This document shows, in pieces, positions 9,482 to 44,263 of a stretch of DNA of 50,668 bases. The stretch lies in the IMG/VR virus record IMGVR_UViG_3300048768_000066, positions 1 through 50,668 of that record; one strand, 5' to 3'. The notes under the pieces are model-generated. The model worked only from the letters and a program-made list of their open reading frames with translations. It was not told the DNA's origin and ran no database searches. This stretch comes from a virus. Numbering within the stretch: the first letter of the stretch is position 1; each line of letters begins with the position of its first letter. Both the position numbers and the translations under genes were made by a program.

Positions 9482-10144
9482 GTGGATTCAGAAGCTATAA
9501 AAGCAAAATTAGATACCATATCGTCATTAATTGCAGACCTTTATGTTCTGACAGCAGTGACTCCTCCTTCTACTTCGTCTCCTGCCGATCCACCTATCAC
9601 GGCTCCGCCTATCACGGCTCCACCCATCGCGGCGTCGCCTGTTAACGGCAGTACTATTGTTAAGATTGAGGATTCGGATTATATTGAGTTTCATGGACTT
9701 AATCAGTATCTTGCAAAGGAATATCTCGACCAGTTGACTATTTTGATGCAACAAAATATCATACAGTTTCCTGATCGGCAATTCAAAAAACTGTATATCC
9801 TCGATGCGGGTACTTCTGATGGAAGCGATCCGCCGAACCATCCCATAGGAACTCATTGCAAGGGATGGGCTGTTGATGCAAAGTATTTCTCTCTTGATGG
9901 AAGTTTCAAAATCTTTGGATCTGATGGAACGATAACAGAGAATTTTGACATTAAGCGAGCGCTGAATTTCATCCTTGCGTTTATAAAAGTGTTTCCTTTA
10001 TGTTATATCTTTATGGATGATCGGATATACTTGGCCTTGTGGAATCTTGCTGCATGGAGTGACAAACAGATTCTTCAAGATAATGTATTTAAGGGATTGG
10101 GACATGATACTCATATTCATCTTGGATATCATGGGCCAAGATGA
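9482..10144 (+). CDS. M15-like peptidase with Pro-rich linker
   Basis: 220 aa from GTG 9482 (AAGGGA upstream). Residues about 30-58 are a Pro/Ala/Thr linker with ITAPP repeats. The C-terminal domain has GTHCKGWAVD (matching the SxHxxGxAxD metal motif of M15/LAS peptidases) and DTHIHLGYH near the end. These peptidases cut peptidoglycan stem peptides or cross-bridges. A second, more canonical M15 enzyme lies at 39503; this one sits among fibre genes and may be virion-associated. Confidence 0.65.
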   Translation: MDSEAIKAKLDTISSLIADLYVLTAVTPPSTSSPADPPITAPPITAPPIAASPVNGSTIVKIEDSDYIEFHGLNQYLAKEYLDQLTILMQQNIIQFPDRQFKKLYILDAGTSDGSDPPNHPIGTHCKGWAVDAKYFSLDGSFKIFGSDGTITENFDIKRALNFILAFIKVFPLCYIFMDDRIYLALWNLAAWSDKQILQDNVFKGLGHDTHIHLGYHGPR

Positions 10145-12395: not shown

Positions 12396-12545
12396 GTGCC
12401 TTTGTACTGTTTTGTCTGCAAGAAATGTGAGAAGATGTTTGAGGCGATTGTCCCTCTATCCGATTCTGACAAGGAAGTTAAGTGTCAGTACTGCGGGAAA
12501 CCGTTGAAAAAACTCATTACTGGTTGCGCGTTTAAGGTGAATTGA
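12396..12545 (+). CDS. FmdB-type zinc-ribbon protein
   Basis: 49 aa from GTG 12396. YCFVCKKCEKMFEAIVPL (CxxC at residues 8-11) and CQYCGKPLKKL (CxxC at 30-33) match the FmdB-like zinc ribbon often encoded next to phage portals. Stop overlaps the portal ATG (TGATG). Confidence 0.7.
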   Translation: MPLYCFVCKKCEKMFEAIVPLSDSDKEVKCQYCGKPLKKLITGCAFKVN

Positions 12546-14557
12546 TGTCTAAAAAGAAATCTCCACTCGAAGGCAAATTCGGACTGGCAGAGGGAATCAT
12601 AAAGAATCTCGTCATAGATTCCGAATATACTACGTGGAAATCGAATAACAACCAACAATATTCGGACTACGAAAGCGTGCTCGACATGGTTGAACTTGTC
12701 CGGTCGGAAAAGAATTACGACTGGAATTCAGATATTTTCATCGGGCTCCTTCTTTCGCACATGCTCACGGATTCCGCGACATGGGCTCAGCAAGACTTTC
12801 AGTCCCGCGACTTCGTTGACATTTACCTTGAAGGGAATCAGCCGGACGACAAGATGAAGGCGAAAGCTGCGAAGACCCTAATCAATCAGCTGTTGAATAT
12901 TAAAGATGTTTACCACTTCCATAAGAGGATCAGGGCTCGCACGATAAACTGGCTCTACGGCCAAGTATATGCGATCATGTGGCCCGAGCAGGAAGTGATG
13001 ACGAGAACGGTTCAACCGCCTCCGCTATCTGTTATTGTACGGGATTTTGATGAGATGGGGAATGTTGTCCCGAAGCAAGTGAGTGTCCCGCAAGAACCGC
13101 AACAAGTAGAAAATGTGGTCGTGGATCGGATCAATTATGATGTGTTTGACGCTCGGAATGTTTTTACCGATTTTAGCTATTCGTATTCAATCCAGCAGAA
13201 ATCCTCTGTGATATTGAGGTCAGAGAAGCGATTTAGTCAGATCAAAGCGGACGGGGCAAAGTTTGGATACTTCAATATGGACGTTTTGCAGGAGAAGTTA
13301 TTCAGCGGTGAAAAGAACCGCAGGGTCAAGTCTTCCGTTGAAACGGATACTTCAAAAGAATCATTCAATAAATTAGGCGGAAGAGAAGGGACAAAACAGA
13401 CTGTATTCCAGCAGGTTGACCCTTCCATGGATATTCTGGATCGGTACGGGTCAATATGGGCAAAAGTAAAAGAACGAGACCCGGAGACTCAACTGCCCAT
13501 TACAATCGAGCCGGGATATGATGATAATGGAGTCCTGGCGGACAAAGCTGAAATGGTTGAGGCTATCATAACCTTTGCCGGAAGCGGATCTGACTTTACC
13601 TTGATCGGGTTCCGGCCCACCTGGGCAATAGACGCTAAAGGGAAACCCTACAAGCCCATCATCCGAGGATGGTGTTACATCCACCCGACAAAGGATACTG
13701 GACTGAGCGACGGCAAAAACCTACGGGAAATGAACATCGCTGCAAACGATACGTTCAATATCTCCAACGACCGGGTAATGCTGGCCACCCTGCCGTCCAT
13801 GATCGGGCGGCGGGATGCTATCGAAAACAATCCAACGGTATTAATCAAACCGGAACACATTACCCTTGTTGAGAATATTGAAACAGACTTGAAGGAATTG
13901 AAGATTCGGGACAACGTGCAGGGAGCAATGGAGACCCTTTCCTTCATCAAGTCCCAATCTTCAGAACTCGATGCGATATTCCCTACCACGATGGGCGGAC
14001 TGCCCGAAAAGACCTCCACGACGGCGACGGCTATCGCGGGTGCCGAGGGAAGGACAAACGCTCGCGGGAATCTAAAGGGACTCACTTGGACGTACACTTT
14101 TGATGTTGAGTTCTATCAGATGATGCTCCAGATGGCGTACAGGTTTATGCGCCCGGAGACCATAGAGAAGATGCTTGGAAAAGAGCTCTCTCAGTTCTTC
14201 GATCCGAATTCCGACTATACCTATGTGCCTATTTCTGAGAACATCGAAGGCGAACACCAGAAGATGCGGAAAGTACAGGTGTGGGACCAAATGATGGGCC
14301 GGATCATGGGCCTTGCAAAGATCGTGCCAAAAGAAATGCTTCCTATTATTTCCATGATAATCGGTGAAGAGGCTCTGTTGATGGGGAGCGAGTATCGGGA
14401 GATTGCAACGATGCTAAGGCAACTTTCTAAGGCGCAACCTCAACCGGAAGGACAGGGAGCGACATCGACAGAAGACGGGAAACCTCCGGCGGTGAGTAAC
14501 CAGAATCAGGTCGAGCAGTCAACCCCGGAGATGGGCGCGAGAGGAACAATGCAATGA
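12545..14557 (+). CDS. Portal protein
   Basis: 670 aa from ATG 12545, overlapping the preceding stop; a TTG at 12542 is the only alternative. Long, mostly helical, directly downstream of terL and upstream of scaffold and capsid, with ERTNARGNLKG-like segments and an acidic Gln-rich C-terminus as in podoviral portals. Forms the dodecameric channel for DNA entry and exit and anchors the tail. Confidence 0.8.
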   Translation: MSKKKSPLEGKFGLAEGIIKNLVIDSEYTTWKSNNNQQYSDYESVLDMVELVRSEKNYDWNSDIFIGLLLSHMLTDSATWAQQDFQSRDFVDIYLEGNQPDDKMKAKAAKTLINQLLNIKDVYHFHKRIRARTINWLYGQVYAIMWPEQEVMTRTVQPPPLSVIVRDFDEMGNVVPKQVSVPQEPQQVENVVVDRINYDVFDARNVFTDFSYSYSIQQKSSVILRSEKRFSQIKADGAKFGYFNMDVLQEKLFSGEKNRRVKSSVETDTSKESFNKLGGREGTKQTVFQQVDPSMDILDRYGSIWAKVKERDPETQLPITIEPGYDDNGVLADKAEMVEAIITFAGSGSDFTLIGFRPTWAIDAKGKPYKPIIRGWCYIHPTKDTGLSDGKNLREMNIAANDTFNISNDRVMLATLPSMIGRRDAIENNPTVLIKPEHITLVENIETDLKELKIRDNVQGAMETLSFIKSQSSELDAIFPTTMGGLPEKTSTTATAIAGAEGRTNARGNLKGLTWTYTFDVEFYQMMLQMAYRFMRPETIEKMLGKELSQFFDPNSDYTYVPISENIEGEHQKMRKVQVWDQMMGRIMGLAKIVPKEMLPIISMIIGEEALLMGSEYREIATMLRQLSKAQPQPEGQGATSTEDGKPPAVSNQNQVEQSTPEMGARGTMQ

Positions 14558-14877
14558 TAACCCCGGAAGACACTCGCAAATATCTTACAGTAGTCGGCAA
14601 GCGCGGTCTGACGACCCTTTCCACGATTGAGAAACTACGCCCGTTTGTCGAGATGATGCAGTCCGAGATGGGTGCGGAGTTCTTACGGGATGATGTCCAG
14701 CAACATTCGGAATTGATTAACAAGATATATGAGGGGCTTATCGACAAAGGGGAGGCGGCGCAGAGGGATGTAATCGCGCTTCAACTTCTCCACAAGAGAC
14801 TTCAGAAAATATATGATCGACTATCCATATACAAGGATAGCGTAAATAAAGTGAAAGGAGGTTCTCAAAATGAATGA
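14554..14877 (+). CDS. Hypothetical helical protein between portal and scaffold
   Basis: 107 aa, almost entirely helical with charged heptads (IDKGEAAQRDVIALQLLHKR). ATGA overlap with the portal gene and eight-base overlap with the next. No family recognised; a head-assembly helper by context. Confidence 0.6.
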   Translation: MITPEDTRKYLTVVGKRGLTTLSTIEKLRPFVEMMQSEMGAEFLRDDVQQHSELINKIYEGLIDKGEAAQRDVIALQLLHKRLQKIYDRLSIYKDSVNKVKGGSQNE

Positions 14878-15688
14878 CGCCGATAACCAAGATGAAAAAG
14901 CAATTTTGGACGCCGAAAGACTTTTGAAGACCGAAGAACCAGTCAAGAAGGAAGAAGTACCAGTAAAGACCGAGGAGGAGATAGCCGCCGAAACAGCCGC
15001 ACAAGAAGCCGAGGCCGCAAAAGCCGCCGAGGCCGCAGCTGCGAAACCGGAAGAGGAAACAGAGGAAGATGCTCTGATTCCTCATGGCGAGAAATCAAGA
15101 CTCGGAAGGAAGGTAAAACGGCTCGAAGACACACTGGGAGAGATCAAGGGGTCTCTCGATTTTCTCAAGGAACGCAGTCAAGTTGCCGCTCCAGAAGTGG
15201 AAGAGGAACTTGCATTGCCGGAAAATCCTACCGCAGAGGAAATCAGGGACTTCGTGAAGCAAGACCGGGCAAGACTCCTGAAGGACATCGAAAAACAGGG
15301 CGCCGCCAAATCCAAGCAGGAGCAGGAGTCAAACCAGAAGTACGGTATGGAATACGCCAAGATGGTGGAGGACATGCTTGATCCCGAAGAAGATGCGGAG
15401 GTTTACAAGCTCATGACCGACACCAAAGACTTGACCTACAACCAGGTTTACAAGCGCGATGCTAAGGAAGATTTTCTCATTAATTATCGCAATGCGACAA
15501 AATCTATCCTTAGAAAGCAGAAGCCTGCAAAGGTCGTCAGTCTCGGCAAGCCTGCCGGTGGGGTGAATGTTCCCGGCGCGACCAAGGTTGAGGCCAAAAA
15601 AGCCGATACTTCAAAATGGTCGGGACCGGAACAGGACATGGCCCGGCTTCTGGGTGAAGATGCTCTTGCGGAGATGGGAATCGGATGA
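14870..15688 (+). CDS. Putative scaffolding protein
   Basis: 272 aa. Highly charged: an acidic, Ala/Glu/Lys-rich N-terminal half (EEIAAETAAQEAEAAKAAEA), a coiled coil near RKVKRLEDTLGEIKGSLDFL, and a basic C-terminus before a short helical tail. Composition and position between portal and capsid are those of phage scaffolds, which direct procapsid assembly and then leave. Preceded by AAAGGAGG. Confidence 0.7.
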   Translation: MNDADNQDEKAILDAERLLKTEEPVKKEEVPVKTEEEIAAETAAQEAEAAKAAEAAAAKPEEETEEDALIPHGEKSRLGRKVKRLEDTLGEIKGSLDFLKERSQVAAPEVEEELALPENPTAEEIRDFVKQDRARLLKDIEKQGAAKSKQEQESNQKYGMEYAKMVEDMLDPEEDAEVYKLMTDTKDLTYNQVYKRDAKEDFLINYRNATKSILRKQKPAKVVSLGKPAGGVNVPGATKVEAKKADTSKWSGPEQDMARLLGEDALAEMGIG

Positions 15689-16107
15689 ACCAGAGTCGTT
15701 ACACTCGATATGACAAGCGTCGCCTTCCGGTACAGAAGCGCACTATCCCGATCTTCGGGGCCGCTTCTTACATTGATGGTCGCGTTGTCAAGGATCAGTC
15801 GGACACGTTTTTCAGGTGTTGGAACTGCGGGTTTATATGCAGGACCGACAGGGACAAGTTAGGCAATGGCGTAGGATACGTCGTCAAGGATCAGGCGGAT
15901 GTGCCTTCCTATCTGAACTTGGGAGCTTCGGCATTTGAGTTTCCCGGTTCGGACAATGGCCGCGATGTTCGCTTGGCCGTAGAAGACGGCGCGACAATGA
16001 ATTTAATGCAACTCGACTCAGACGGGAATCCGGTGACGGTAATGCACAATTTTTACAGCAAGGTCACGTCAGGGTGTCCGTTTTGCGGGACGAGACAATA
16101 TAAGTAA
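15685..16107 (+). CDS. Zinc-ribbon protein of the capsid operon
   Basis: 140 aa. CWNCGFIC (residues 45-52) and CPFCG near the C-terminus are the two halves of a zinc ribbon separated by an inserted segment of about 75 residues. Overlaps the scaffold gene by four bases. Unknown role; a minor head protein is possible. Confidence 0.6.
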   Translation: MNQSRYTRYDKRRLPVQKRTIPIFGAASYIDGRVVKDQSDTFFRCWNCGFICRTDRDKLGNGVGYVVKDQADVPSYLNLGASAFEFPGSDNGRDVRLAVEDGATMNLMQLDSDGNPVTVMHNFYSKVTSGCPFCGTRQYK

Positions 16108-16118
16108 AGGAGAGAATT

Positions 16119-16943
16119 ATGGGATTCAAAGTGGTCGGTGGAACTCCCACCATTTACAGTTTGTGGATGCCTGTTGACAGGGTTGTAGGAGCTACCTCGC
16201 TTTATGTCGGGCAGCTCGTACAGTGCCTGGGCGTAACCCACAATGGCGCGGCCCCGCTGATCGTGTCTACCACACTGGCGGATACGGGCAAGCAGGTAAT
16301 CTTTGGGGTTGTCACGGGTATGAATAACTACCCGATGACAGAACTAACCGATGCGACTTACGGACAGTACATCACATCCGTTCAGACGCAGGCAGAACAG
16401 AAAGCGATTATGAAGATGGGGAATGAGGGCATGTTTGTAAAAGGTGATCCTCAGCCTCTGGTTCAGATCGCTCGTATTTTCCCCGGTACGGTATTGCAGG
16501 GTCCGATCTTTATGGGGACTTATGGAACTGCGCCTACCGTTCTTACGCCGACGGCAGTTACGGCGGCGGGTGTTGGTATGACGACCAATTCCGACGGGCT
16601 CACGATGGCAAGCATGGCACAGTGCAGCACGACATATTGCCGCACAGGAGCTAACGCCGGGATTTACCGCGTTGATTTGGATGTCAGTCAGACAGTCAAG
16701 ACGTTTACGACCTACTGGCCCTATGATCTGGCGGTAACGGATACGTTCGTTAGGGTTCCGTTCAAGGTTGGTACTTGTTATGCGAACCTAAATACGGCGC
16801 CCATCGGGATGGGTTTTGATTGCGTCGCAGATGTTATCACGGCCAACTACATGGTTGACGTGCATTCACTTGATCTGAAGGAAGCTGGAAAAGAAAAGGT
16901 CACCTTCACGTTCAATGCTTCACACTTCTGTGGTAGAGCGTAA
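16119..16943 (+). CDS. Putative head decoration / structural protein
   Basis: 274 aa, directly upstream of the capsid gene, preceded by AAAGGAGAG. Beta-rich, Gly/Thr/Val-rich, with few charged stretches (TLADTGKQVIFGVVTGMNNY). Two domains seem separated near residue 145. A head decoration or stabilising protein is the likely role from position; no motif proves it. Confidence 0.5.
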   Translation: MGFKVVGGTPTIYSLWMPVDRVVGATSLYVGQLVQCLGVTHNGAAPLIVSTTLADTGKQVIFGVVTGMNNYPMTELTDATYGQYITSVQTQAEQKAIMKMGNEGMFVKGDPQPLVQIARIFPGTVLQGPIFMGTYGTAPTVLTPTAVTAAGVGMTTNSDGLTMASMAQCSTTYCRTGANAGIYRVDLDVSQTVKTFTTYWPYDLAVTDTFVRVPFKVGTCYANLNTAPIGMGFDCVADVITANYMVDVHSLDLKEAGKEKVTFTFNASHFCGRA

Positions 16944-16956
16944 GGAGGTAGTTTAG

Positions 16957-17898
16957 ATGAGTAATCCTATGAATCAGTCAAGATTTCAGGAGTTAGTACG
17001 GAAGGGGTGGGATAAAGTTACCGGCGAGGTCACAGAGGAACTGCATCAGCGCGAGTCGCTGCGGGAAACCCTCTATACCGAAGCGGGACTGGATTCCGCA
17101 TATTACGAGAAATACGGCGTCAGCGATCTACCGGATATCCCGCGTTTCAATGGGACCTTAACATATCTGGATGTGGCTCCAGGATTTGGGGTCAGAATCG
17201 AACCTGGCGAGTTTGCCGCTGGCGTAGAAGTGGAAAGGAAACTCTGGGAGAACAATCTTTATCCGGTCATGAAAGACTGGCCAAGAAAGTTTACTATGGC
17301 TTCACATCGCACCAAGGAGAAAGCGGCAATCAAAGGGTATGCAAAGCTCAATTCAGCAGCCTTTGATTTCATGCCGTGGAATGAGGAAGGCGTACCCATT
17401 GCCAGTTCCAGCCATACGACGAAGAATGATTATGTCACGACTTCGGCGGGTGGTTATAGCAACTTGGGCAGTTCGGCTTTCAGCCCGACGGCGGTTGAAG
17501 CTACCAGAATCCTGATGAGGGGATTCCGGGGTCTGAATGGTGAAATTCTTGCCATTACCCCGGACGGCTTCATCGGTCCTACGACTCTCGATCAGAAGTT
17601 CGAGGAAGTGACGGCAACGCCGTTAGGACTTTACACGGCGAACCATACCGTCAACGTACAGCACAACCGCAAGTGGGAGTATAAAACCTCCCAGTATTTC
17701 AATGATTACAGCACGAAAAGCTGGATCATGGTTGATTGGAACCTTCTGAAGCAATTAGCGGTATGGAAAACGAGGATAGAAGACCAGGGTGGGGCAAAGA
17801 TCGACTTTGAGACCTACCGTCTGAAGTTCTCCCTGTACAGCTATTGGGGTTACGGCTTCCTTGGATGGCAAGCGTTTTACTTCCATCAGGTGAGCTAA
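16957..17898 (+). CDS. Major capsid protein
   Basis: 313 aa, preceded by AAGGAGG. Follows portal, scaffold and decoration-like genes and is ended by a strong hairpin, as expected for the most abundant virion protein. HK97-like features include a helical N-arm (ELHQRESLRETLYTEAGLD) and the central segment VERKLWENNLYPVMKDWPRK. Forms the icosahedral shell. Sequence-level family not recognised; the call rests on size, position and composition. Confidence 0.75.
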   Translation: MSNPMNQSRFQELVRKGWDKVTGEVTEELHQRESLRETLYTEAGLDSAYYEKYGVSDLPDIPRFNGTLTYLDVAPGFGVRIEPGEFAAGVEVERKLWENNLYPVMKDWPRKFTMASHRTKEKAAIKGYAKLNSAAFDFMPWNEEGVPIASSSHTTKNDYVTTSAGGYSNLGSSAFSPTAVEATRILMRGFRGLNGEILAITPDGFIGPTTLDQKFEEVTATPLGLYTANHTVNVQHNRKWEYKTSQYFNDYSTKSWIMVDWNLLKQLAVWKTRIEDQGGAKIDFETYRLKFSLYSYWGYGFLGWQAFYFHQVS

Positions 17899-17910
17899 GT
17901 TTTCAACATT

Positions 17911-17943
17911 CGGGTAGGGGGTAACTCAAAAGCCCCCTGCCCG
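17911..17943 (+). terminator. Strong hairpin after the capsid gene, no U-tract
   Basis: Arms CGGGTAGGGGG (17911-17921) and CCCCCTGCCCG (17933-17943) pair over 11 bp with one G-U on the plus strand. No T-run follows. More likely protects or processes the capsid mRNA, or lowers downstream expression, than acts as a complete terminator. Confidence 0.6.
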
Positions 17944-18032
17944 GATCAACCGTGTAAGTGTCCGTTAGAGTCGGGCAGGCAGCGCATGAGAGTAAAGACA
18001 GGGCGGTGTCACATACAGAAAGGAGTAGTAAA

Positions 18033-19016
18033 ATGAGTATCACAAATTTTCCATACGGGGTTTTTGCAACGCCTAATATCGGCGGTGCAAGACTCGCAGA
18101 TATGTGGAACACCGAAAACATTTTCTTTGTTGACGGGGATAATGGACTTGCCGGTAATGGCGGGCAGTCACCGGATGATTCGGCTGATATTCCTTCGACC
18201 GCTGTCGCATTAGCGTCGAGAGGTGCGACCATATATGTGCGTCCGAGGACGACCGCCGCATCTGCACAGAGTTACTATCTCGACAATATAGTCGTTCCAA
18301 TAACCAAGCCCCAGATTGCCATTATCGGTTGTGCTCAAGATCGGGATCGCCCGTATTTGGGTCCGGCGGTCAAAACAACGGTAGCGGGAGCCGCTACATC
18401 CGTATTGATTGTGAAAGCAGCCGGGTTTCTCACCGAAGGCATGGAATGGACAGGCACGAGTCAGACCGGGGATATAAGTGTCATCTATGCAGCTAATGAT
18501 GGGACTTTATCTCTAAGCAGCGGGCTAACTGTTCGTAACTGTACGATTCGTAATGTCAAGGGACATGCGGCGACAACGGGAGGCGGGATTCATTTTGAAA
18601 CTCCCATATTCTCGAAAGTCCAGAATTGTCTCTTTAAGGACAATTTGAACAGTATTATGTTTCGTTCGACTTCCGCAGCCATCAATTCTCTTATTATTGA
18701 AGGCTGTATTTTCAGCGGCATAAATACGGGACGTGATACTGACATTTATTCCAACGCGGATTCCGGTTATGGGCTGGTAATTAACAACTGTCAATTCAAT
18801 GATAACCTGCCCAGCCATGGAACCAACAAGTTCATTGCACTTTCCGCCGGAATTGCCGGGATAATTTCAAATTGCCGTTTTGCTTATACCAGCGCAACGG
18901 CAGATGCTTTACTGGCCGCATCGGGGACGATTGGCAATGTTCCCACTACTGTTTTGACTGTAAATTGTATGGTCGAACAAACGGTTGAGGGTCAGGCTTC
19001 TGTCATTACTCGCTAA
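18033..19016 (+). CDS. Right-handed beta-helix protein
   Basis: 327 aa from ATG 18033, where AAAGGAG is well placed; an in-frame start at 17958 lacks a site. Repeated short strands ending in Asn/Cys (LTVRNCTIRNVKG, FSKVQNCLFKDN, LIIEGCIFSG, LVINNCQFND) are the rungs of a parallel beta-helix, as in tailspikes and polysaccharide lyases. Encoded between capsid and connector genes, so it may be a head fibre rather than a tailspike. Catalytic residues cannot be assigned. Confidence 0.65.
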   Translation: MSITNFPYGVFATPNIGGARLADMWNTENIFFVDGDNGLAGNGGQSPDDSADIPSTAVALASRGATIYVRPRTTAASAQSYYLDNIVVPITKPQIAIIGCAQDRDRPYLGPAVKTTVAGAATSVLIVKAAGFLTEGMEWTGTSQTGDISVIYAANDGTLSLSSGLTVRNCTIRNVKGHAATTGGGIHFETPIFSKVQNCLFKDNLNSIMFRSTSAAINSLIIEGCIFSGINTGRDTDIYSNADSGYGLVINNCQFNDNLPSHGTNKFIALSAGIAGIISNCRFAYTSATADALLAASGTIGNVPTTVLTVNCMVEQTVEGQASVITR

Positions 19017-19030
19017 CCTTTTGAAGCGAC

Positions 19031-19050
19031 GGGGGACGCTATATTCCCCC
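19031..19050 (+). terminator. GC hairpin after the beta-helix gene
   Basis: GGGGGA (19031-19036) and TCCCCC (19045-19050) with an 8-nt loop, no T-run. Same style as the hairpin after the capsid gene. Confidence 0.45.
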
Positions 19051-19059
19051 ACCTAAAAT

Positions 19060-19254
19060 ATGCTGATTAAAATCAAGGGTAGAAACCGAATGGGTAAAAG
19101 CCGTTCGGAAACAGAGGCGAATCTTCATAAGGAATGGGGTAGTGCTTCACTAACTCATGAAGAAATTGATAAGTGCCGGTTCATCGAAAAGAAGACAGGA
19201 GCAGGATGGATAGATAAATCACTCATAGAACACGTGGAAGAAATAAGGCGATAA
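19060..19254 (+). CDS. Hypothetical small protein
   Basis: 64 aa from ATG 19060 or 54 aa from ATG 19090; neither has a clearly spaced ribosome site (AAGGG lies 11 nt before the latter). Charged, ending IDKSLIEHVEEIRR. No family recognised. Confidence 0.5.
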   Translation: MLIKIKGRNRMGKSRSETEANLHKEWGSASLTHEEIDKCRFIEKKTGAGWIDKSLIEHVEEIRR

Positions 19255-19288
19255 GGCGAAAGCCACCCAGATGAAAGGAGAACGAAAG

Positions 19289-20059
19289 ATGGAAGAGATA
19301 GCTTACAAAACAAACGAGGAAGTAATGGCAGTTCCGGATACTAAGAAGCAAGCGGCCAGGGAACGTATGGCAAACGCAAGGGCAAGCAAGAAGAGGCCGA
19401 GCAGGTCAAAAGACATCGAACTTGCCAGACTGAAAGAGCAAGTCAAGGAACTGAAGGAGAGGCTGATTGTTCCGGTGACGGCAGTATCAGCGCCGGGGGA
19501 ACTGCCTAAACCAAAAATTGCATCTGATATTAAGTGGTTCACGGAAGTGGATTTGAATGATAAGGGCAAAGTGGCCTCTGACTACCCCGCTTGGTACTTC
19601 ACGGAGAATGTGAAGGAACTCGCAGAGGATATTCGAAGTCTTGAAAACGGGATCGACGAGGGGATCTACATCGGCAAGAAGCGCCGGGATGCCGTCAAGC
19701 AGCTCGAGACAAAGAAGCAACGATATAGCCAGATCGTAGACGGAAAGCCGAAGATGACCGACGTGAACAAAGACAAGGTTATGAGGTCATTCAAGGAACT
19801 CGGCGGCAAGATCGGGGAATCCATGTTTAGTCACGATGACATGTGGAAGATGACCGCAGACGCCCACGCAGAGGCCGAGCGCATGGTCATGCCGTGCATC
19901 GAGGTAACTGATGCTGTTGCTGGTTCCTTTGTGAAAGAACGCGGCATGAAGGTAGTAGATGGGAAGATTTCAAGGAACGATGCCAGTATAGTTTGGAAAT
20001 GTATGGCAAAAGCCCTTGGTGAACAAACTGACGTGGAGGCTCTTCGGAGGATCAAGTAA
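19289..20059 (+). CDS. Hypothetical charged protein, possible assembly factor
   Basis: 256 aa from ATG 19289 (AAAGGAG upstream); an ATG at 19271 would sit on top of that site. N-terminal Lys/Arg-rich region and coiled coil (RLKEQVKELKERLIV), then a helical region ending VEALRRIK. Lies between the head fibre-like gene and the connector; a minor virion or assembly protein by position. Confidence 0.55.
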   Translation: MEEIAYKTNEEVMAVPDTKKQAARERMANARASKKRPSRSKDIELARLKEQVKELKERLIVPVTAVSAPGELPKPKIASDIKWFTEVDLNDKGKVASDYPAWYFTENVKELAEDIRSLENGIDEGIYIGKKRRDAVKQLETKKQRYSQIVDGKPKMTDVNKDKVMRSFKELGGKIGESMFSHDDMWKMTADAHAEAERMVMPCIEVTDAVAGSFVKERGMKVVDGKISRNDASIVWKCMAKALGEQTDVEALRRIK

Positions 20060-20970
20060 TGCTTGGGATTGATTACATTAGCCGCATTAACCAGCAGTTG
20101 AGTGAGTTCAATTCGTCTTGGATTGATTTGAAGACCAGCTTTGACTATCTGTACGAGGCGTCAAAGGACTTTGCCAAAGAGACCCGTTCATGCAGTAACT
20201 CTCAGACGATCACCACGATTGCAAATACGGCGGCATATAACCTCAATCCCGACTTCCTGGAGATCATGACGACTGACGATCACAACGATGCGGTTATCAA
20301 GTACTACGACGGATCGAACACGGAATGGTTGAACTGGGAATCTTATTCGGACTATCTCCAGAACGGCAATGACCCCGGAACGCCGCAGAGTTTTGCGGTG
20401 GTGGACGCTACGCCGCCCACAAGACTTACGGGAACAAATTTCGCCACAGCAGCCGCTTCGGGTGGAGAATCCTTGCTATCGGCCTATGGCGTCTCTTTTG
20501 TTTCATCCTATCCGGGCGACATGGTGGTGAATACGACGGCAGGAAAGGAATATGTCGGCGTGGCCTTAGTACCTGGAGCACATCTCACGACGGCAATGTT
20601 TGATTTGACGGTAAGGGGTGGAGCGTATGCGGGTTGGACCGCGGGCGATACTTACATGATCCAACCTTCTTCTCGATACCAGATCGTGTTGGACCCTCCT
20701 CCTGACACGTCTGGCGAAACTGTCACCGTCGCCTACTACGCTCGCCCCTTGCCTGTTTACTCTGATTATGGCACTTATCCTTTTGCGACTGGCTACGAAG
20801 AAGCGTTAATCAAGTATGCAGTATGGCTTTATAAATACAGAGATTCTAAGCAGAACATGGGCGATCCTCTTTATCTCGCCTATGAACGTGAGATGCGTAA
20901 GGGGAAAAACGTGAACAGAAAAGCTGTGGGCGGGGTGGGCTTTCGCGTGAATTTCATGAAGAGTCGTTAA
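20059..20970 (+). CDS. Putative head-tail connector / adaptor protein
   Basis: 303 aa, starting at a TAATG junction. Helical N-terminus, an inserted beta domain (about residues 100-215, Gly/Thr-rich), then SSRYQIVLDPPPDTSGETV and a helical C-terminus (EEALIKYAVWLYKYRDSKQN). This N- and C-terminal arrangement is seen in phage adaptor-type proteins next to gp10-like genes. Probably bridges portal and tail hub. Confidence 0.5.
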   Translation: MLGIDYISRINQQLSEFNSSWIDLKTSFDYLYEASKDFAKETRSCSNSQTITTIANTAAYNLNPDFLEIMTTDDHNDAVIKYYDGSNTEWLNWESYSDYLQNGNDPGTPQSFAVVDATPPTRLTGTNFATAAASGGESLLSAYGVSFVSSYPGDMVVNTTAGKEYVGVALVPGAHLTTAMFDLTVRGGAYAGWTAGDTYMIQPSSRYQIVLDPPPDTSGETVTVAYYARPLPVYSDYGTYPFATGYEEALIKYAVWLYKYRDSKQNMGDPLYLAYEREMRKGKNVNRKAVGGVGFRVNFMKSR

Positions 20971-20971
20971 T

Positions 20972-23900
20972 ATGCCAACTAAAGGGCTTGAAAGACAAAC
21001 AGGCCACCAGAGATTCGACTGGCCACTGACAGGCAAACTTCGGAAGGATGTCGATCCTGCTTTGATCGGTGAGACGAATTTCCGCGAACTTATCAACCTG
21101 AGGCCCACAGCGGACTACCCGAAGGGTATCCAGGGGATGACGAAGATAAATGTTGCGTCGTTAAGGTACCTTTGGGGATTTATAGTTAGAGTCCTGTCGG
21201 TTGTGAATGGGTTCCATTTCCGCAAGGATCAACCCGCAGAATCCCATATCTTTGTTCAGGGGAATTACTTTACGGTGCCGTGGTTGTTGAAGTCGGACAA
21301 TACGACGGCGATCCCTAATCAGGATACTTTCTGTGCTACGACATCCGCGCAATTATTGGAAAATACCAATGCGGTGCTTTTCAGCGAAGCCCCGAATGGG
21401 GCCATGTGTGCCATGAATGGGGCGGTGAACCGGATATGGGCTGGGAACGAAGATAGATGCGGCCAGTTCATCGTCTATGATCCTGCCGGGTCTTTCTGGT
21501 ATGACTATACCGACAAGGTGAATAACACCCTTTCCGATGCAGCAAACGTGGCGACCATGCACTCCGCAGCGGGAACAGTAGATTCATCTACAAAACTCCT
21601 GATCCACGCGGGTGAAGCAAATCACACAGCGGGAACAAGCATCATTGATTCTGAAACCTCGGCGAAGACCATAACCGCCCACGGGAATGCTCAGGTTGAT
21701 ACCTCTCAAGCAAAATTTGGAACCGGCTCGGTCGCGTTTGATGGAACTAACAGCTATCTTTCTCTTGCCGATTCTGCCGATTGGTATATGGGAACCGGAG
21801 CATTCACGATTGATTTTTGGTGGAAGCCCAATGGTTCAACTAATCCGCAAGGCTTATTTCAGCAAACCGTCGATACAAATAATTGGGTTGTTTGTATTTA
21901 CGTCCCTATCAGTAGCGTATTAGGCCAACTATCTATTTCCGTAAAGTCAGGAGGGTCATTAACTGTTAATGTAAGCTATGTCGCCGGGATCATAGATGGG
22001 GCGTGGAATCATATAGCTCTTATCAGGGGATGGGGCGGGGATGCAAACAAATGGGCATGGGCAATTAATGGCACGTTAGCTTATGCGGCAGACACAAATG
22101 TGAATCCCTGGCCCGACTTGGCGGCTGCTTTTGAAATAGGAAGATATTACAATTACGGCACAACGACATATTCTTATTTGAAGGGGTGGATAGACGAGTT
22201 CCGCATTTCCAAAGGAGTAGCGAGATGGACGGCCAATTTTCTTCCCTCTTCGTCTGCTTACGGAACAGCAGACACAACCAATGTTTATATCGGGTCCGTC
22301 AGGCCAATCCAGGGAGTTAAATTTTATGTCGGAACGGCAAACACTAACGCCTCGGTTGCGTCCGGGTATGAATGGACTGGCGCAGCCTGGTCTCCTCTTA
22401 CTCTTTACGACGGCACTTCTGCTACGGGCGGAAAGTCACTCGGCAAGACAGGGGAAATAATTTTTAACTCTACGGTGACCACATCAAAGGTCAAGGCCGT
22501 TAAAAGATCAGTAGCCTATTTTTACCAGTTTGTTTTCACAACCCTTACGACTGGAACTACGGTGTATTATTGCACCCTTGACGCTCCCATGCAGGCGGTC
22601 ACAGATATTTGGGACGGCGTGGGAAGATATTGCTTGCAATGCTTTCAATCCGACGGGACATCATATACCGATTTAACTACCAATGTTGCGCCTTCGACCA
22701 CAAGCAACCCGAAAGCCTATCAGGCCGCAAGCGACATGACCTATGCTCAGCTCGGCGGTCAAACAGTATCCCAATGCCTGTACTGCGGATTCAGCGAACG
22801 AGTGTTGGGAATTGAATGGAGTCTACCGGATGCTTTGTATACAAACAATTCCCTTCCATCAACCATGGATTTTATAGATGGTACTGTTGACCCTACTGCT
22901 CAACTAATATTTACCAGCACGGGAAGTGCCTATGCGATGGTAGCTTCAGTAACAATCACAAGCGGTTCATGGGCTGGTGGAGATGCAGCAGGAAAATTTC
23001 TTATAACCGGGTGGAATGGCCAGCCCTTTGATATAGGGGCGGGAACTCATGTTTATTACCAGTCCTTTGTCACGGTCGCTGAAGCAACTTCTCAACCTGT
23101 AAGCCCTGTAAGCCCCGCAACCGTGTCAATATATTACTGGAATGGTTCTGCTTGGGTTTCGGTCGGAAATGTAGATGATAGCACGGCGACAGGGGGAATA
23201 AGTCTAAGCCATTCCGGTTTGATGACTTGGGCTCCTCCAGCCGAAAACATTGAGTTCAAGACAGCAATTGCAAACGATTATGAGTTTTACTATTACAAAG
23301 TTTCATGGGACACTACGTTGGCTTCCGACGTGAGGGTTGACAATATTGGCGGGATCACAGTCCAAAAAACATTAAGACCGTATAGGTTTTCGGTTCTATG
23401 GCAGAATAGATTATGGATGTTTAACGATCAGGCGGATAGAAAAAATACTGGTATCTGCTCTTCTTATGGGACGAACTGCGTTTTCAATGGTGATGATTTC
23501 TATGAAATGGAGTTTGGCGACGCAAAAGAACTTATTTGCGGTGATTCGCTATTCAGTCGGTACGGGAGCAACATTTACGATAACATGATTTTATGCAAAA
23601 GAGGAGCAACTTATTTAATCGACGGGTATGGACCATCGACATGGACGATCTATACCATTTCCGACAAGGTTGGATGTCTTGCGCCTCTTACCATGAAACG
23701 ATGCGATATGAGTTTTGAAGTTGCCGCCGGGATGACAAAGCACGTTTTAATGTGGAGGTCTGCGCGTGCGATAGAATTCTTCGACGGGAATACGATTGCC
23801 CCCGTCACGGACGATATTAAGAACTTCTTCGATCCCACGTCGAGCGACTACATTGATCCCACTATTTATGATGTAAGTCTGGAATCTGGTTGCTACGATG

Positions 23901-24463
23901 AAATAAACTTTGGGTATCACTGGATATTCACTAATATAAATGGGAAGCAGGAGTGGGAGTATTCCCTGAGATACAAGAAGTGGTTTCAAGTAAACAGGGG
24001 AACGGGCAAAGCGTTGACTTGCGGTTTCAACGTACAGGATACGAACGGCGACACGTTCCTTTTTGGCGGGACTGCGGACGGGTTTATTGAACGTCTTGAG
24101 AATGGCACTACTTTCGACGGAAACGCTATTGTCCATACTTTTTGGTTTGGCGACATTCTGCTTGCAAAGACGGGAGATTATGTTTGCACATTGAGGCATG
24201 TAAAATTATTCGCAAAGGCAAAGAATATATCCTCCGCAACGGTAGCTGTCACGCACTATGCCGATACCGCATCAACGGGAGAATCTTTAGCGGCGATATC
24301 TCAGGTAGATGCAACGCACAGGCTGTATCAGGCAAAACATAGCATAGGCATGGATGCCGTATTGCACTCACTAAGATACGACATTACTACGAATGATGAA
24401 GTAATCGGGTTTGAGCCTTTAATGGTTTCGGGACTGTATGAAGTTAAGAGAGAAGATTTATGA
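20972..24463 (+). CDS. P22 gp10-like tail hub protein with inserted LamG domain
   Basis: 1163 aa. N- and C-terminal portions look like the tail-stabilisation family of podoviruses: FRELINLRPTADYPKGIQGM near residue 32, and later RLWMFNDQADRKNTGICSSY...IYDNMILCKRGATYLIDGYG...TISDKVGCLAPLTM. About residues 205-433 form a concanavalin A/LamG-like lectin domain (FDGTNSYLSLADS, FTIDFWWKP, WNHIALIRG, GWIDEFRISKGVARWTANF). The hub closes the portal after packaging and carries fibres; the lectin insert could bind surface sugars. Confidence 0.7.
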   Translation: MPTKGLERQTGHQRFDWPLTGKLRKDVDPALIGETNFRELINLRPTADYPKGIQGMTKINVASLRYLWGFIVRVLSVVNGFHFRKDQPAESHIFVQGNYFTVPWLLKSDNTTAIPNQDTFCATTSAQLLENTNAVLFSEAPNGAMCAMNGAVNRIWAGNEDRCGQFIVYDPAGSFWYDYTDKVNNTLSDAANVATMHSAAGTVDSSTKLLIHAGEANHTAGTSIIDSETSAKTITAHGNAQVDTSQAKFGTGSVAFDGTNSYLSLADSADWYMGTGAFTIDFWWKPNGSTNPQGLFQQTVDTNNWVVCIYVPISSVLGQLSISVKSGGSLTVNVSYVAGIIDGAWNHIALIRGWGGDANKWAWAINGTLAYAADTNVNPWPDLAAAFEIGRYYNYGTTTYSYLKGWIDEFRISKGVARWTANFLPSSSAYGTADTTNVYIGSVRPIQGVKFYVGTANTNASVASGYEWTGAAWSPLTLYDGTSATGGKSLGKTGEIIFNSTVTTSKVKAVKRSVAYFYQFVFTTLTTGTTVYYCTLDAPMQAVTDIWDGVGRYCLQCFQSDGTSYTDLTTNVAPSTTSNPKAYQAASDMTYAQLGGQTVSQCLYCGFSERVLGIEWSLPDALYTNNSLPSTMDFIDGTVDPTAQLIFTSTGSAYAMVASVTITSGSWAGGDAAGKFLITGWNGQPFDIGAGTHVYYQSFVTVAEATSQPVSPVSPATVSIYYWNGSAWVSVGNVDDSTATGGISLSHSGLMTWAPPAENIEFKTAIANDYEFYYYKVSWDTTLASDVRVDNIGGITVQKTLRPYRFSVLWQNRLWMFNDQADRKNTGICSSYGTNCVFNGDDFYEMEFGDAKELICGDSLFSRYGSNIYDNMILCKRGATYLIDGYGPSTWTIYTISDKVGCLAPLTMKRCDMSFEVAAGMTKHVLMWRSARAIEFFDGNTIAPVTDDIKNFFDPTSSDYIDPTIYDVSLESGCYDEINFGYHWIFTNINGKQEWEYSLRYKKWFQVNRGTGKALTCGFNVQDTNGDTFLFGGTADGFIERLENGTTFDGNAIVHTFWFGDILLAKTGDYVCTLRHVKLFAKAKNISSATVAVTHYADTASTGESLAAISQVDATHRLYQAKHSIGMDAVLHSLRYDITTNDEVIGFEPLMVSGLYEVKREDL

Positions 24464-25005
24464 CCATTCCGAATGATACCTATGCCGCCCCACAAAGGGC
24501 CATAACGGGCGGTACTGCCGGTAAAAGGACCGAAACTACGGGATACCAACAATTTGCCACGGGTGGTGGTGGGGGTGCGGGTAATGTTGTTGGTCCCGCA
24601 TCAGCGGTTGATTCGGATATTGTTGAATTTGATACTACGACAGGAAAACTGATAAAGGATGGTGGCATTACTCATGCGCAGCTCGTGGCAGCCATAAATG
24701 CAGCTAAACTTGTCGGGTATCGTGAGGGCATGATTGTCACTGTCAAGGATGCCACGAATCTTTATGTTGATGGTGGTGCGTTGGAGATAAATGGGGATGT
24801 GTGGCAACTTTCCGCTCAAACAACTGTGCCGATGGGAACAACTGATCCAGACACGCTTTATTACCTCTACGCCTCGGTTGCGGCGAGTGTATGGACATTC
24901 ACAGTATCCTTGACCGTCCCTCTTTTTTCCGACACTTTGGGTGCGGCATACATGACAGGGGACACGACGAAACGGTGGTTAGCGAACGTAAGAACGGCGG
25001 CTTAA
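24460..25005 (+). CDS. Fibre-associated structural protein
   Basis: 181 aa, ATGA overlap with the hub gene. Contains VDSDIVEFDTTTGKLIKDGG, a motif recurrent in phage fibres, preceded by a Gly-rich stretch. A C-terminal beta domain follows. Probably a fibre adaptor attaching to the hub. Confidence 0.6.
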   Translation: MTIPNDTYAAPQRAITGGTAGKRTETTGYQQFATGGGGGAGNVVGPASAVDSDIVEFDTTTGKLIKDGGITHAQLVAAINAAKLVGYREGMIVTVKDATNLYVDGGALEINGDVWQLSAQTTVPMGTTDPDTLYYLYASVAASVWTFTVSLTVPLFSDTLGAAYMTGDTTKRWLANVRTAA

Positions 25006-39502: not shown

Positions 39503-39919
39503 ATGAAACACTTTGCTTTATACGAACTTGTTGACCGTGTGACATATACAAAGTGGGGAGAGCTTGCTTTTGGCCTATTCGCTCCCGATCTCCTGATTGC
39601 CCTCGACGGAGTTCGTGACTTCTTCAACGTACCAATTACTGTCAACAACTGGTACGGAGGAGGGCCTTTCCAGTACCGTGGATACCGTGGACCTGACTGT
39701 CCAGTAGGAGCCGAGAATTCCTACCATAAGAAGGGTATGGCCGCAGACTTCGACGTTCAAGGGTTGGATGCGGATGTTGTACGGGGGATGATTATGGAAC
39801 ACCAGAATGACCCTCTGTTGGAAAAGATTCAACGTCTTGAGGCGGATGTAAATTGGGTTCACATGGATGTAGGGAAGGTTCCAGAAGGCAAACAAAGGAT
39901 CTATGTTTTCAAAGCATGA
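39503..39919 (+). CDS. M15 peptidase endolysin
   Basis: 138 aa. NSYHKKGMAADFDV matches the SxHxxGxAxD motif (metal His and Asp) and WVHMDV gives the second His of the M15 family. Compact, without a wall-binding domain or signal peptide, so it depends on a holin for release. Members hydrolyse D-Ala-D-Ala-type or L-Ala-D-Glu peptide bonds of peptidoglycan. Confidence 0.8.
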   Translation: MKHFALYELVDRVTYTKWGELAFGLFAPDLLIALDGVRDFFNVPITVNNWYGGGPFQYRGYRGPDCPVGAENSYHKKGMAADFDVQGLDADVVRGMIMEHQNDPLLEKIQRLEADVNWVHMDVGKVPEGKQRIYVFKA

Positions 39920-39939
39920 AAGGAAACATAATGAATGAT

Positions 39940-40037
39940 TAAGCCGCAATAGGAAAGCTAACCACCCATTGCAATGGGAATCTGAAAGCGGCTTATTGGG
40001 ACATAAGAAGGTTGGCCCGTGCGCACGGTTCTTATGT
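39940..40037 (+). ncRNA. Structured RNA element with two hairpins and predicted cross-pairing
   Basis: Stem 1: TAAGCCGC (39940-39947) with GCGGCTTA (39988-39995), enclosing the 14-nt palindrome CCCATTGCAATGGG (39965-39978). Stem 2: ACATAAGAA (40001-40009) with TTCTTATGT (40029-40037), enclosing the 12-nt palindrome CCGTGCGCACGG (40017-40028). The bulge GGTTGGC (40010-40016) can pair over 7 bp with GCTAACC (39957-39963) inside stem 1. This much nested complementarity in 98 nt is unlikely by chance. Not recognised as a known class; a ribozyme, regulator or processing element are all possible. Confidence 0.65.
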
Positions 40038-40077
40038 TTAAGAAACAAGAAACATTTAAGGAAAGGGATGAAGATGG

Positions 40078-40305
40078 ATGATGACCCTGGCGGTTTTTGT
40101 TGCGAACATAGCGACAGACATTTTGGCCGTCCTTTTTATCAGAGAAGTAACGGCGCATCATCGCATAAGGGCGGCTCTGGTAAGTATGCTGATCGTGGCC
40201 CTGTCCTACTTCTCAATCATCTATATCGTAGCCAACGTGTATTATATGATCCCTGCAATGTTGGGCGCGGGGGTAGGCTGTTACATAACTGTGGGGCGTA
40301 AATGA
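40078..40305 (+). CDS. Small membrane protein, lysis region
   Basis: 75 aa from ATG 40078 (or 40081), AAAGGG upstream. Three hydrophobic stretches: TLAVFVANIATDILAVLF, AALVSMLIVALSYFSIIYIV and YMIPAMLGAGVGCYITV. Size, position and membrane content suggest a holin or pinholin-like protein. A 110-codon reading frame overlapping it is treated as spurious. Confidence 0.6.
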   Translation: MMTLAVFVANIATDILAVLFIREVTAHHRIRAALVSMLIVALSYFSIIYIVANVYYMIPAMLGAGVGCYITVGRK

Positions 40306-42162: not shown

Positions 42163-42639
42163 TCACTCATCTTTGGCCGCCTTGAGGGCGTCTTTCACAG
42201 CAGAGGGAATACATAAAGTTTCTTTATCCCTCATGCGAAGGGACATTGACTTCTCTACTAACTCAGCTAATTTATCCGTTGGCAAAGCACCCCAAATCAC
42301 TAAGTATGATACGACATCCTCAGCAACCTTTAGTCTTTCCCTCAGCCGTCCATTCTCGGCGGTCAGGACATCGATCTGCTTGTCCTGTTCCATCACTGTC
42401 CCATTACAGGCATATAAACTCCTCTGCGTCGCTGCGTGGTTTGCAATTTCGAGAGATAAATCTCTCTGCGTAACCAGTTTTTTGCGTTCCGCTTCTCGTG
42501 CCATATCGCATTGTCGAGCAAGCATGGTGGCATTTGCGGATAAGTCGGCACTAAGCCGCTCAACCTCCTTATTCTTCGTTTTCACCTCCGCTTCGAGGGC
42601 GGCGATTTCCCCATTCAGTGTAATGATTAAGTCACTCAT
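42163..42639 (-). CDS. Coiled-coil protein with IAALEAEV repeat
   Basis: 158 aa from ATG 42639 (GAGG upstream); an extension to 42762 would overlap the zinc-ribbon gene. Starts MSDLIITLNGEIAALEAEVK, long coiled coil, helical C-terminus. Its stop abuts the stop of the convergent holin-like gene with no gap. Shares a DNA repeat with the next coiled-coil genes. Function unknown. Confidence 0.6.
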   Translation of the reverse strand: MSDLIITLNGEIAALEAEVKTKNKEVERLSADLSANATMLARQCDMAREAERKKLVTQRDLSLEIANHAATQRSLYACNGTVMEQDKQIDVLTAENGRLRERLKVAEDVVSYLVIWGALPTDKLAELVEKSMSLRMRDKETLCIPSAVKDALKAAKDE

Positions 42640-42787
42640 CTTGTCCGTCCTCTTCTTCCCGTGGATCTTCCGGTATCTGGCAGTTCGTCCCGCCGCAATT
42701 CGGGCAGTAGGTATAAGGCGAAATACCCGTAAGATTTTTCCAATAGATTCCGTATCGCCCACAGATACTACAAATCATCGTACTCAT
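42632..42787 (-). CDS. Small zinc-ribbon protein
   Basis: 51 aa from ATG 42787 with AAGGAGGGG upstream. CSICG (residues 6-10) and CPNCGG (28-33), plus C36, with YWKNLTGISPYTY between, form a zinc ribbon. C-terminus acidic. Stop overlaps the start of the coiled-coil gene at 42639. Confidence 0.65.
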   Translation of the reverse strand: MSTMICSICGRYGIYWKNLTGISPYTYCPNCGGTNCQIPEDPREEEDGQDE

Positions 42788-42987
42788 CTTCCCCTCCTTG
42801 CCCTATCGAGTTCTCGTTCAAGGGCGGCGATCTGCTCATCCTTCTCCTTCACCTCCGCTTCGAGGGAGTCGATGTGCTCTCCTCTTCCTTCCCATTGTCG
42901 TTTATAGTGTTCAACATCTTCCTTTAATTGGAAACATTCAATGCTATCTTCTTGTTTCAGGGCCGCCGCCTCAAGGGTGGCGATCAT
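42784..42987 (-). CDS. Coiled-coil protein with SLEAEVKEKDEQIAALE repeat
   Basis: 67 aa from ATG 42987 (TTAGGG upstream). A GTG at 43017 overlapping the upstream stop would give 77 aa; the longer in-frame extension overlaps the previous gene and looks spurious. Coiled coil with two repeat units (TLEAAALKQED, SLEAEVKEKDEQIAALEREL). ATGA overlap with the zinc-ribbon gene. Confidence 0.5.
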   Translation of the reverse strand: MIATLEAAALKQEDSIECFQLKEDVEHYKRQWEGRGEHIDSLEAEVKEKDEQIAALERELDRARRGR

Positions 42988-43010
42988 TTTCCCTAATCTG
43001 TCCACTTCCT

Positions 43011-43544
43011 TCAGCACCAGTCGGTAGTCGGAGATGAATTTGTGATTACTTTCTTGACAATGCTCAGCAACAATTTGGTCATGGCGGCGATCTGCTCCTC
43101 TTTGGCACCTATTGCCAAAAAAATTGCATTGATTATGTCGGGTCCGGCAATATCTTTTGGCACCCAAAATCCTCTTTTTTGTAGCCCTTCCCTAATTTCT
43201 TGTGCCAAAGATATCCTATCTTCCGAATATATGGTCTTCCTTTCCCTCACCTCCGCTTCGAGGGCGGAAATCTGCTTGATATAGCCATCTGCTATCTTTG
43301 CCCATGTTGCAATATCACACTCTCTGGATTTCACCGCCGCTTCGAGGGCGGCGATCCTGTTTTCGTACTGTTCTTCGATGCTATCCATCGTACTCATCTT
43401 CTCCTCCTTCCCTGGCCATGTCTCCAGTGCAATCGGTAACGATTTCTCCGCCAGCAAGTTATTTTCAGAAGCCATCGCCTCATAACCCTTTGCCAAAAAT
43501 ATTGGTTGCCAGCGGATTTCACCTGCCGTATCTGTTTTGTACAT
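43011..43544 (-). CDS. Coiled-coil protein, possibly two fused units
   Basis: 177 aa from ATG 43544 (AAGGAGGAGAAG upstream). An internal ATG at 43397 has its own identical AAGGAGGAGAAG site and begins MSTMDS, like the zinc-ribbon protein start MSTMIC at 42787. The gene thus looks like a fusion of two cassettes, and may give two products. Coiled-coil units NRIAALEAAVKSRE and ISALEAEVRERK follow; the C-terminus is AAMTKLLLSIVKKVITNSSP. Confidence 0.55.
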   Translation of the reverse strand: MYKTDTAGEIRWQPIFLAKGYEAMASENNLLAEKSLPIALETWPGKEEKMSTMDSIEEQYENRIAALEAAVKSRECDIATWAKIADGYIKQISALEAEVRERKTIYSEDRISLAQEIREGLQKRGFWVPKDIAGPDIINAIFLAIGAKEEQIAAMTKLLLSIVKKVITNSSPTTDWC

Positions 43545-43564
43545 CTTCTCCTCCTTCATAAGTC

Positions 43565-43738
43565 GGTTGTCATGATCGGATTCCCCACCCGACACCTGTC
43601 CTGTTGCCTGTCAGACCAACAGGCGCTTAATGGCCCTCTCGATTCCCCGTCCCGAACCTCTGCCGGTCGCAGCCATTCTCCATGCAATTTCACAGGCGCA
43701 TGAACTCTTACCCGACGCTGACACGCCGCATGACAACC
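43565..43738. repeat. 10-bp inverted repeat enclosing a 174-bp gene-free segment
   Basis: GGTTGTCATG (43565-43574) and CATGACAACC (43729-43738) are perfect inverse complements. The right arm ends exactly where the HNH-AP2 gene stops. Inside is CCTGTTG/CAACAGG (43608-43631). No gene is supported here; only frames of about 45 codons without ribosome sites exist. It may be a structured leader or the edge of an insertion. Confidence 0.45.
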
Positions 43739-44263
43739 TTAGATTAAGTTTACCTTGGCTCCTTCCCCGAAATATTTGATAGCTGCATTATTATAAGCCA
43801 TTGCCGCATCTTTGGGATTATCGAAATATCCAAGATGAAATCGCTTTCGTTTGACACCTATTTTACTTGTAAATTTTTGCTCTTTAATATTCCAACTTAC
43901 TCCTTGATATTTTGAACGTATCATGTTTTGGGTATTTTGTGATTGTGTGCAATTCCTCAGATTTACCTTTTGGTTATTTAGGCCATTATGGTCAAGATGA
44001 TCGACCACGAATCCGACAGGTGTTTTCATAATTATTCTGTGCATAAAAATTACCTTTTTGTTTTCGACCCTGACCGCATATTTGTATTTTTCCCGACCAG
44101 CAAGACACCATTTCCATTGGGATAATAAATTGTAATCATCAGCATCTACTATCGCTACCTTTCCTTGCGATAGGGATATTTCTCTGAATCCTGTCCCGAT
44201 TCCAGTAGGGGCTATGGCATTTTGGACATACATTGATTTTTGGCTTCCGGGGAGACCATTCAT
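43739..44263 (-). CDS. HNH-AP2 homing endonuclease, N-terminus out of frame
   Basis: 174 aa if started at ATG 44263 (GGAGGTG upstream). HNH domain: FMHRIIMKTPVGFVVDHLDH...NLRNCTQSQN. AP2 domain: YQGVSWNIKEQKFTSKIGVK...FHLGYFDNPKDAAMAYNNAA. The family core begins at REISLSQGKVAIVDADDY; the ~27 residues before it are translated from the zinc-ribbon coding sequence in another frame. Related proteins often carry a zinc ribbon fused directly ahead of this core, so a frameshift is suspected. Likely a homing enzyme cutting cognate sites. Confidence 0.75.
   Translation of the reverse strand: MNGLPGSQKSMYVQNAIAPTGIGTGFREISLSQGKVAIVDADDYNLLSQWKWCLAGREKYKYAVRVENKKVIFMHRIIMKTPVGFVVDHLDHNGLNNQKVNLRNCTQSQNTQNMIRSKYQGVSWNIKEQKFTSKIGVKRKRFHLGYFDNPKDAAMAYNNAAIKYFGEGAKVNLI

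Follow-up and report, generated by a model that had tools for sequence, protein, structure and literature searches.

A pseudoknotted RNA of about 98 nt is encoded on the plus strand of the phage contig analyzed here (an IMG/VR record of 50,668 bp, taken at full length and referred to as the window). Together with a homolog at locus L012 in a contig of a distantly related phage, it constitutes an RNA family that is real, new to Rfam, and previously undescribed. The fold and its assignment to the plus strand are well supported, from two sequences only. Among the structured RNAs of phages are ribozymes, riboswitch relatives, and RNA-based anti-CRISPRs; the present one combines a covariation-backed fold and no Rfam counterpart with a size that allows direct synthesis and assay. 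The family probably belongs to environmental podovirus-like phages, and we tentatively favor, at somewhat less than an even chance, a role in late phage mRNA, where it would act in cis on its own transcript.

Architecture of the RNA

Without the two 7-nt strands of the pseudoknot, the window RNA would consist of two ordinary hairpins, the first composed of P1, P1.1, and P2 and the second of P3 and P4:

39940–40037, plus strand: whole pseudoknotted RNA, about 98 nt; 31/31 pairs kept in L012 (6312–6412)
39940–39947, plus strand: 5′ arm of P1, UAAGCCGC; pairs with 39988–39995 (8 bp); P1 pairs vary on both sides in L012
39950–39954, plus strand: UAGGA, 5′ strand of the proposed short helix P1.1; conserved; partner UCUGA at 39981–39985
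39957–39963, plus strand: GCUAACC, pseudoknot strand a (PKa); partner 40010–40016; L012 counterpart GGUUAGU (6327–6333)
39965–39978, plus strand: P2 hairpin, CCCAU-UGCA-AUGGG; UGCA loop retained and 4/5 pairs double-changed in L012
39981–39985, plus strand: UCUGA, 3′ strand of P1.1; partner of 39950–39954
39988–39995, plus strand: 3′ arm of P1, GCGGCUUA, from the stem search
40001–40009, plus strand: 5′ arm of P3, ACAUAAGAA; pairs with 40029–40037 (9 bp); proximal AGAA/UUCU kept in L012
40010–40016, plus strand: GGUUGGC, pseudoknot strand b (PKb), flush between P3 and P4; L012 counterpart ACUAACC (6389–6395)
40017–40028, plus strand: P4 hairpin, CCGU-GCGC-ACGG; 2/4 pairs double-changed in L012, loop GCGY
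40029–40037, plus strand: 3′ arm of P3, UUCUUAUGU, from the stem search

The 8-bp stem, the 9-bp stem, and the 7-bp cross-pairing proposed in the initial annotation were all recovered at the coordinates given there. P1 encloses the palindrome CCCATTGCAATGGG, and P3 encloses CCGTGCGCACGG; both hairpins had been described as palindromic, and the palindromes are indeed perfect in the window, but the corresponding elements of L012 (GGGTTTGCAAGCCC and CTATGCGTGTAG) form hairpins that are imperfect palindromes, so that the property is incidental. P1.1 contains an A-G mismatch and is flanked by AA on both sides; in its region, UAGGAAAG and AAUCYGAAAGC are conserved between the window and L012. The pseudoknot (GCTAACC with GGTTGGC at the DNA level) comprises six Watson-Crick pairs and one G-U pair, and in hairpin 2 zero unpaired bases link P3, the pseudoknot strand, and P4. 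One 7-nt strand is located 5′ of each inner hairpin; their mutual pairing would lock the two hairpins into a single compact body.

Single stems of this kind are near the chance expectation for 50 kb: perfect 8-bp stems enclosing loops of 3–40 nt begin at 39 places in the window. The 98 nt likewise fold with a minimum free energy close to that of shuffled sequences (z = -1.3). Among 20,000 dinucleotide shuffles, 2 contained a pair of adjacent perfect stems of at least 8 bp, and none contained such a pair with an inner hairpin in both stems. The 7-bp cross-pairing appeared in 440 of 100,000 loop shuffles (0.44%). The combination of stems and cross-pairing in the window is not due to chance, and the homolog at L012 settles that the structure is real.

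A homolog in a related phage

A search with the portal protein identified 13 contigs at 42–100% identity. Two of them are nearly genome-sized: G004 (49,814 bp, portal identity 62%), which carries locus L012, and G009 (48,056 bp, about 43%). The order of the morphogenesis genes is conserved. The IMG/VR contig 3300036913_000016 (12,784 bp) has essentially the same sequence as positions 12542–24600 of the window and represents the same phage in a second sample.

A covariance model built from the single window RNA, with the pseudoknot left out, matched L012 at 6310–6377 (16.7 bits, E 0.39) through hairpin 1, most of hairpin 2 being skipped. The remaining parts, including both pseudoknot strands, were found by reading on in L012, where the homologous RNA spans 6312–6412. 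There P3 corresponds to GAGAA/UUCUU and P4 to CUAU-GCGU-GUAG, with no linkers, as in the window, and an extra hairpin (GCCC-GAAU-GGGC) separates the two halves of the RNA. Common to both copies are two inner hairpins, one of 5 bp closed by a UGCA loop and one of 4 bp closed by a GCGY loop. Hairpin 2 and the pseudoknot lie outside the match by which L012 was found. Taken alone, a 7/7 pseudoknot match located anywhere is not rare when wobbles are permitted (30%), so it is the arrangement that counts: when the 3′ side of L012 was subjected to 300,000 dinucleotide shuffles, the full zero-linker order of P3, pseudoknot strand, and P4 appeared once.

Covariation and strand

In the MAFFT alignment of the two sequences (window and L012), all 61 cells pair and 31 of 31 pairs are kept, 12 of them with changes on both sides (two in P1, four in the pseudoknot, four in P2, and two in P4). 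The pseudoknot is thus double-changed in 4/7 pairs, from GCUAACC/GGUUGGC to GGUUAGU/ACUAACC. None of 500 column shuffles was as good as the real alignment, and pairing fell from 100% to 29–49% when the partners were slid by 1–3 columns. The pairs of P1.1 and of proximal P3 hardly vary and are supported by conservation, not covariation. The proposal of a structured RNA with a pseudoknot is thereby supported by compensatory changes.

Six pairs are wobbles (two in the window, four in L012), and all are G-U on the plus strand and A-C on the minus strand. This favors an RNA of the plus strand and disfavors a DNA dyad; an RNA of the minus strand was rejected, since the wobble pairs are broken there.

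Known families and distribution

Neither the whole window nor L012 matched any Rfam 15 family at the gathering threshold, in agreement with the initial view that the RNA falls into no recognized class. At E values up to 10, only chance-level hits were obtained for both; the best of these, wcaG, queA, and Mahella-1 RNAs, lie far below gathering and share only short stems with the element. ARAGORN found no tRNA or tmRNA in the window.

Exact and degenerate DNA patterns retrieved from IMG/VR only the L012 contig as a real match, the others being due to chance; a wider scan gave 54 matches, among which the same contig was again the sole real one (reappearing as L096, a positive control). All 19 matches of a GTDB genome pattern scan were due to chance, blastn against phages and plasmids returned nothing convincing, and no viral-contig relatives were obtained via the holin or via the terminase. 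A covariance model built from the two members detected only the two known copies among the relatives, no copy in G009 (the third near-complete relative, searched with filters off), and no third member in three INPHARED podoviruses or in 696 genomes drawn from two phyla; in genomes, an empty result is weak evidence. A portal profile revealed no prophage relatives in genome contigs. The family is either rare or fast-diverging, and two members are too few for a reliable consensus. Fast sequence divergence would cause ordinary searches to miss the family, so that finding further members requires the covariance model of both copies together with the secondary structure as corrected here.

Genomic context of the two copies

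The window RNA sits in the 158-nt gap between an endolysin gene and a holin-like gene and ends 40 nt before the start codon of the latter:

39503–39919, plus strand: peptidase M15-type endolysin, 138 aa (phrog_894, E 9.9e-21)
39931–39942, plus strand: three-codon ORF MND* (ATG AAT GAT TAA), from sequence and translation; SD-like AAAGGA upstream
40078–40305, plus strand: 75-aa membrane protein with a weak holin match (phrog_7045, E 0.026); SD-like AAGGAAAGG at 40059–40067

The stop codon of MND* coincides with the first three bases of P1, and a terminating ribosome would cover this stem; the ORF has no counterpart in L012. A 7-bp hairpin, TATGTTT/AAACATA, surrounds the endolysin stop (39902–39930), and AAACATAA (39924–39931) can pair with TTATGTTT (40032–40039) in the P3 arm as a possible alternative fold.

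The L012 copy heads a packaging operon. A 75-aa ORF starts 23 nt downstream of the RNA, and behind it come a 56-aa ORF, a gene resembling that of the terminase small subunit (phrog_3802, E 7.8e-6), and the large terminase gene. Upstream lies a sigma-70 promoter matching the consensus at 12/12 positions (TTGACA at 6265, a 17-nt spacer, and TATAAT to 6293), and P1 begins about 12 nt past the predicted transcription start. This promoter lies in an AT-rich non-coding stretch of about 1.1 kb (L012:5300–6435) that separates divergent genes and contains repeated GTAAGGTTTTGTAAG-like words; the stretch is possibly a control region or origin.

Placement in a lysis module, as originally described, is therefore not conserved: the L012 RNA precedes terminase genes, whereas the lysis genes of the same contig encode a different endolysin type, abut each other, and lack the RNA. 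At L002, where the endolysin is 68% identical, the next gene starts directly after it and leaves no gap for the RNA. No promoter consensus was found upstream of the window copy. Neither copy has an intrinsic terminator (a GC-rich hairpin followed by a U run), and no terminator-like site was found at the 3′ end of the RNA (40037 and L012:6412) or before the next start codon. On the simplest view, the RNA belongs to late mRNA but is not tied to any one gene.

Other features of the window include a row of minus-strand ORFs (42163–43595) in which AALEAEV-like coiled-coil stretches recur and CGCCGCCTCAAGGGTGGCG-like hairpins are repeated, and which looks like a paralogous family; a minus-strand 174-aa ORF (43739–44263) that reads like an HNH-type homing endonuclease and has a relative in G009 (L028); and a second possible peptidase M15-like ORF (9482–10144), located just before the terminase gene and far from the lysis cassette.

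Possible functions

The RNA is probably carried in the late rightward transcript, where it may govern the stability, processing, or translation of the cistron located 23–40 nt downstream. This cis-acting role, which we hold to be the best explanation with somewhat less than even confidence, is suggested by the position of both copies on the strand of the downstream genes, with 23 nt in L012 and 40 nt in the window separating the RNA from the start codon and no intervening terminator-like site; the L012 promoter, with its start about 12 nt before P1, is counted for it as well. The downstream genes are unrelated (holin-like in the window; in L012, the 75-aa ORF and then the terminase small subunit-like gene), a finding equally compatible with action in trans or independent of any particular gene. 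A switch in which P3 sequesters the downstream SD sequence was unsupported, as alternative pairing of the conserved UUCUU strand with it does not exceed chance (shuffles did equally well in 39% and 29% of cases).

A bolder reading, possible but rather doubtful, would make the RNA a new functional class, either a self-cleaving ribozyme or a trans-acting RNA for host takeover or packaging, with a flush bulge-to-bulge pseudoknot and mobility as a module between genome positions. In a trans-acting version, which we consider unlikely, a non-coding RNA would be released from the late transcript by cleavage or termination and, once free, act on a target of the phage or the host, for instance in packaging, host takeover, or counter-defense. 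The differing genome positions and unrelated neighbors in the two phages would be expected of a self-contained module, the L012 copy has its own strong promoter directly upstream, and a compact pseudoknot would presumably resist nucleases; however, neither copy shows a terminator-like 3′ site, and the window copy has no promoter consensus before it.

A new class of small self-cleaving ribozyme with pistol-like topology, processing late phage mRNA, is more doubtful still. The RNA is small, pseudoknotted, and located in phage late regions; pistol ribozymes likewise occur near phage genes (PMC4604425), and both copies carry GU at the pistol right-shoulder place. This GU, however, is able to pair, which would leave a right shoulder of 0 nt, a C replaces the pistol general base G40, the A/G-G preceding the pistol pseudoknot is not conserved, and no Rfam ribozyme matched.

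A ligand-sensing riboswitch in the late leader appears slightly less probable again. The pseudoknotted body of about 95 nt lies 23–40 nt before a start codon and contains conserved unpaired or mismatched bases (AA pairs beside UAGGA/UCYGA, the UGCA loop), but the downstream genes are unrelated and not metabolic, and no competing structure beats chance in the two sequences available.

It is highly improbable that the region acts as DNA (protein-binding dyads, a cruciform, or a replication signal): the stems are inverted repeats and the L012 copy adjoins the long AT-rich non-coding stretch, but pairs are kept through G-U on the plus strand only, the pseudoknot is impossible in a DNA dyad, and fixed 7-nt bulges without linkers have RNA-type geometry. 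A small or broken protein gene across the element (MND*AAIGKLTTHCNGNLKAAYWDIRRLARAHGSYV*) can practically be dismissed, as previously concluded from the window: its frame is open from 39943 to 40038, the TAA at 39940 apart, but its codon score lies at the 5th percentile of real genes, no protein match was found for it, the differences between the window and L012 are spread evenly over the codon positions (6, 6, 6), and in-frame stops in L012 leave no reading frame conserved.

Comparison with known structured RNAs

In pistol ribozymes (RF02679), a pseudoknot links hairpin 1 to the left-shoulder junction of hairpin 2, and GU is located at the right shoulder (PMC4604425). The phage RNA resembles them in that a strand of hairpin 1 pairs with the junction at the left shoulder of hairpin 2, where outer and inner stems meet; its pseudoknot has 7 bp, four of them double-changed, compared with 6–7 bp in pistol, and the hairpin 1 strand lies in an internal rather than a terminal loop. 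GU occupies the right-shoulder place as G40028-U40029 in the window and G6407-U6408 in L012, but its two bases can pair into P4 and P3, which would give a junction of 0 nt, whereas the pistol junction is exactly 2 nt. The phage RNA further differs in the extra inner hairpin P2 and helix P1.1 of hairpin 1 and in left and right shoulders without unpaired linkers. The position of pistol G40 is C in both copies, and the catalytic A/G32, G33, and G42 are not conserved, G33 and G42 not being kept in L012. The RF02679 model gave no match in the window record; its sole hit in G004, at 12.2 bits and away from the RNA, was due to chance. Membership in the pistol class was therefore rejected on catalytic bases and model, despite the similar topology.

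The phi29-type pRNA is likewise a phage-encoded structured RNA, and the location of the L012 copy upstream of terminase genes adds to this likeness. Kissing loops of pRNA are intermolecular. The phage RNA differs from it in having no Rfam match to the pRNA family and, in the window, a position 29 kb from the terminase gene.
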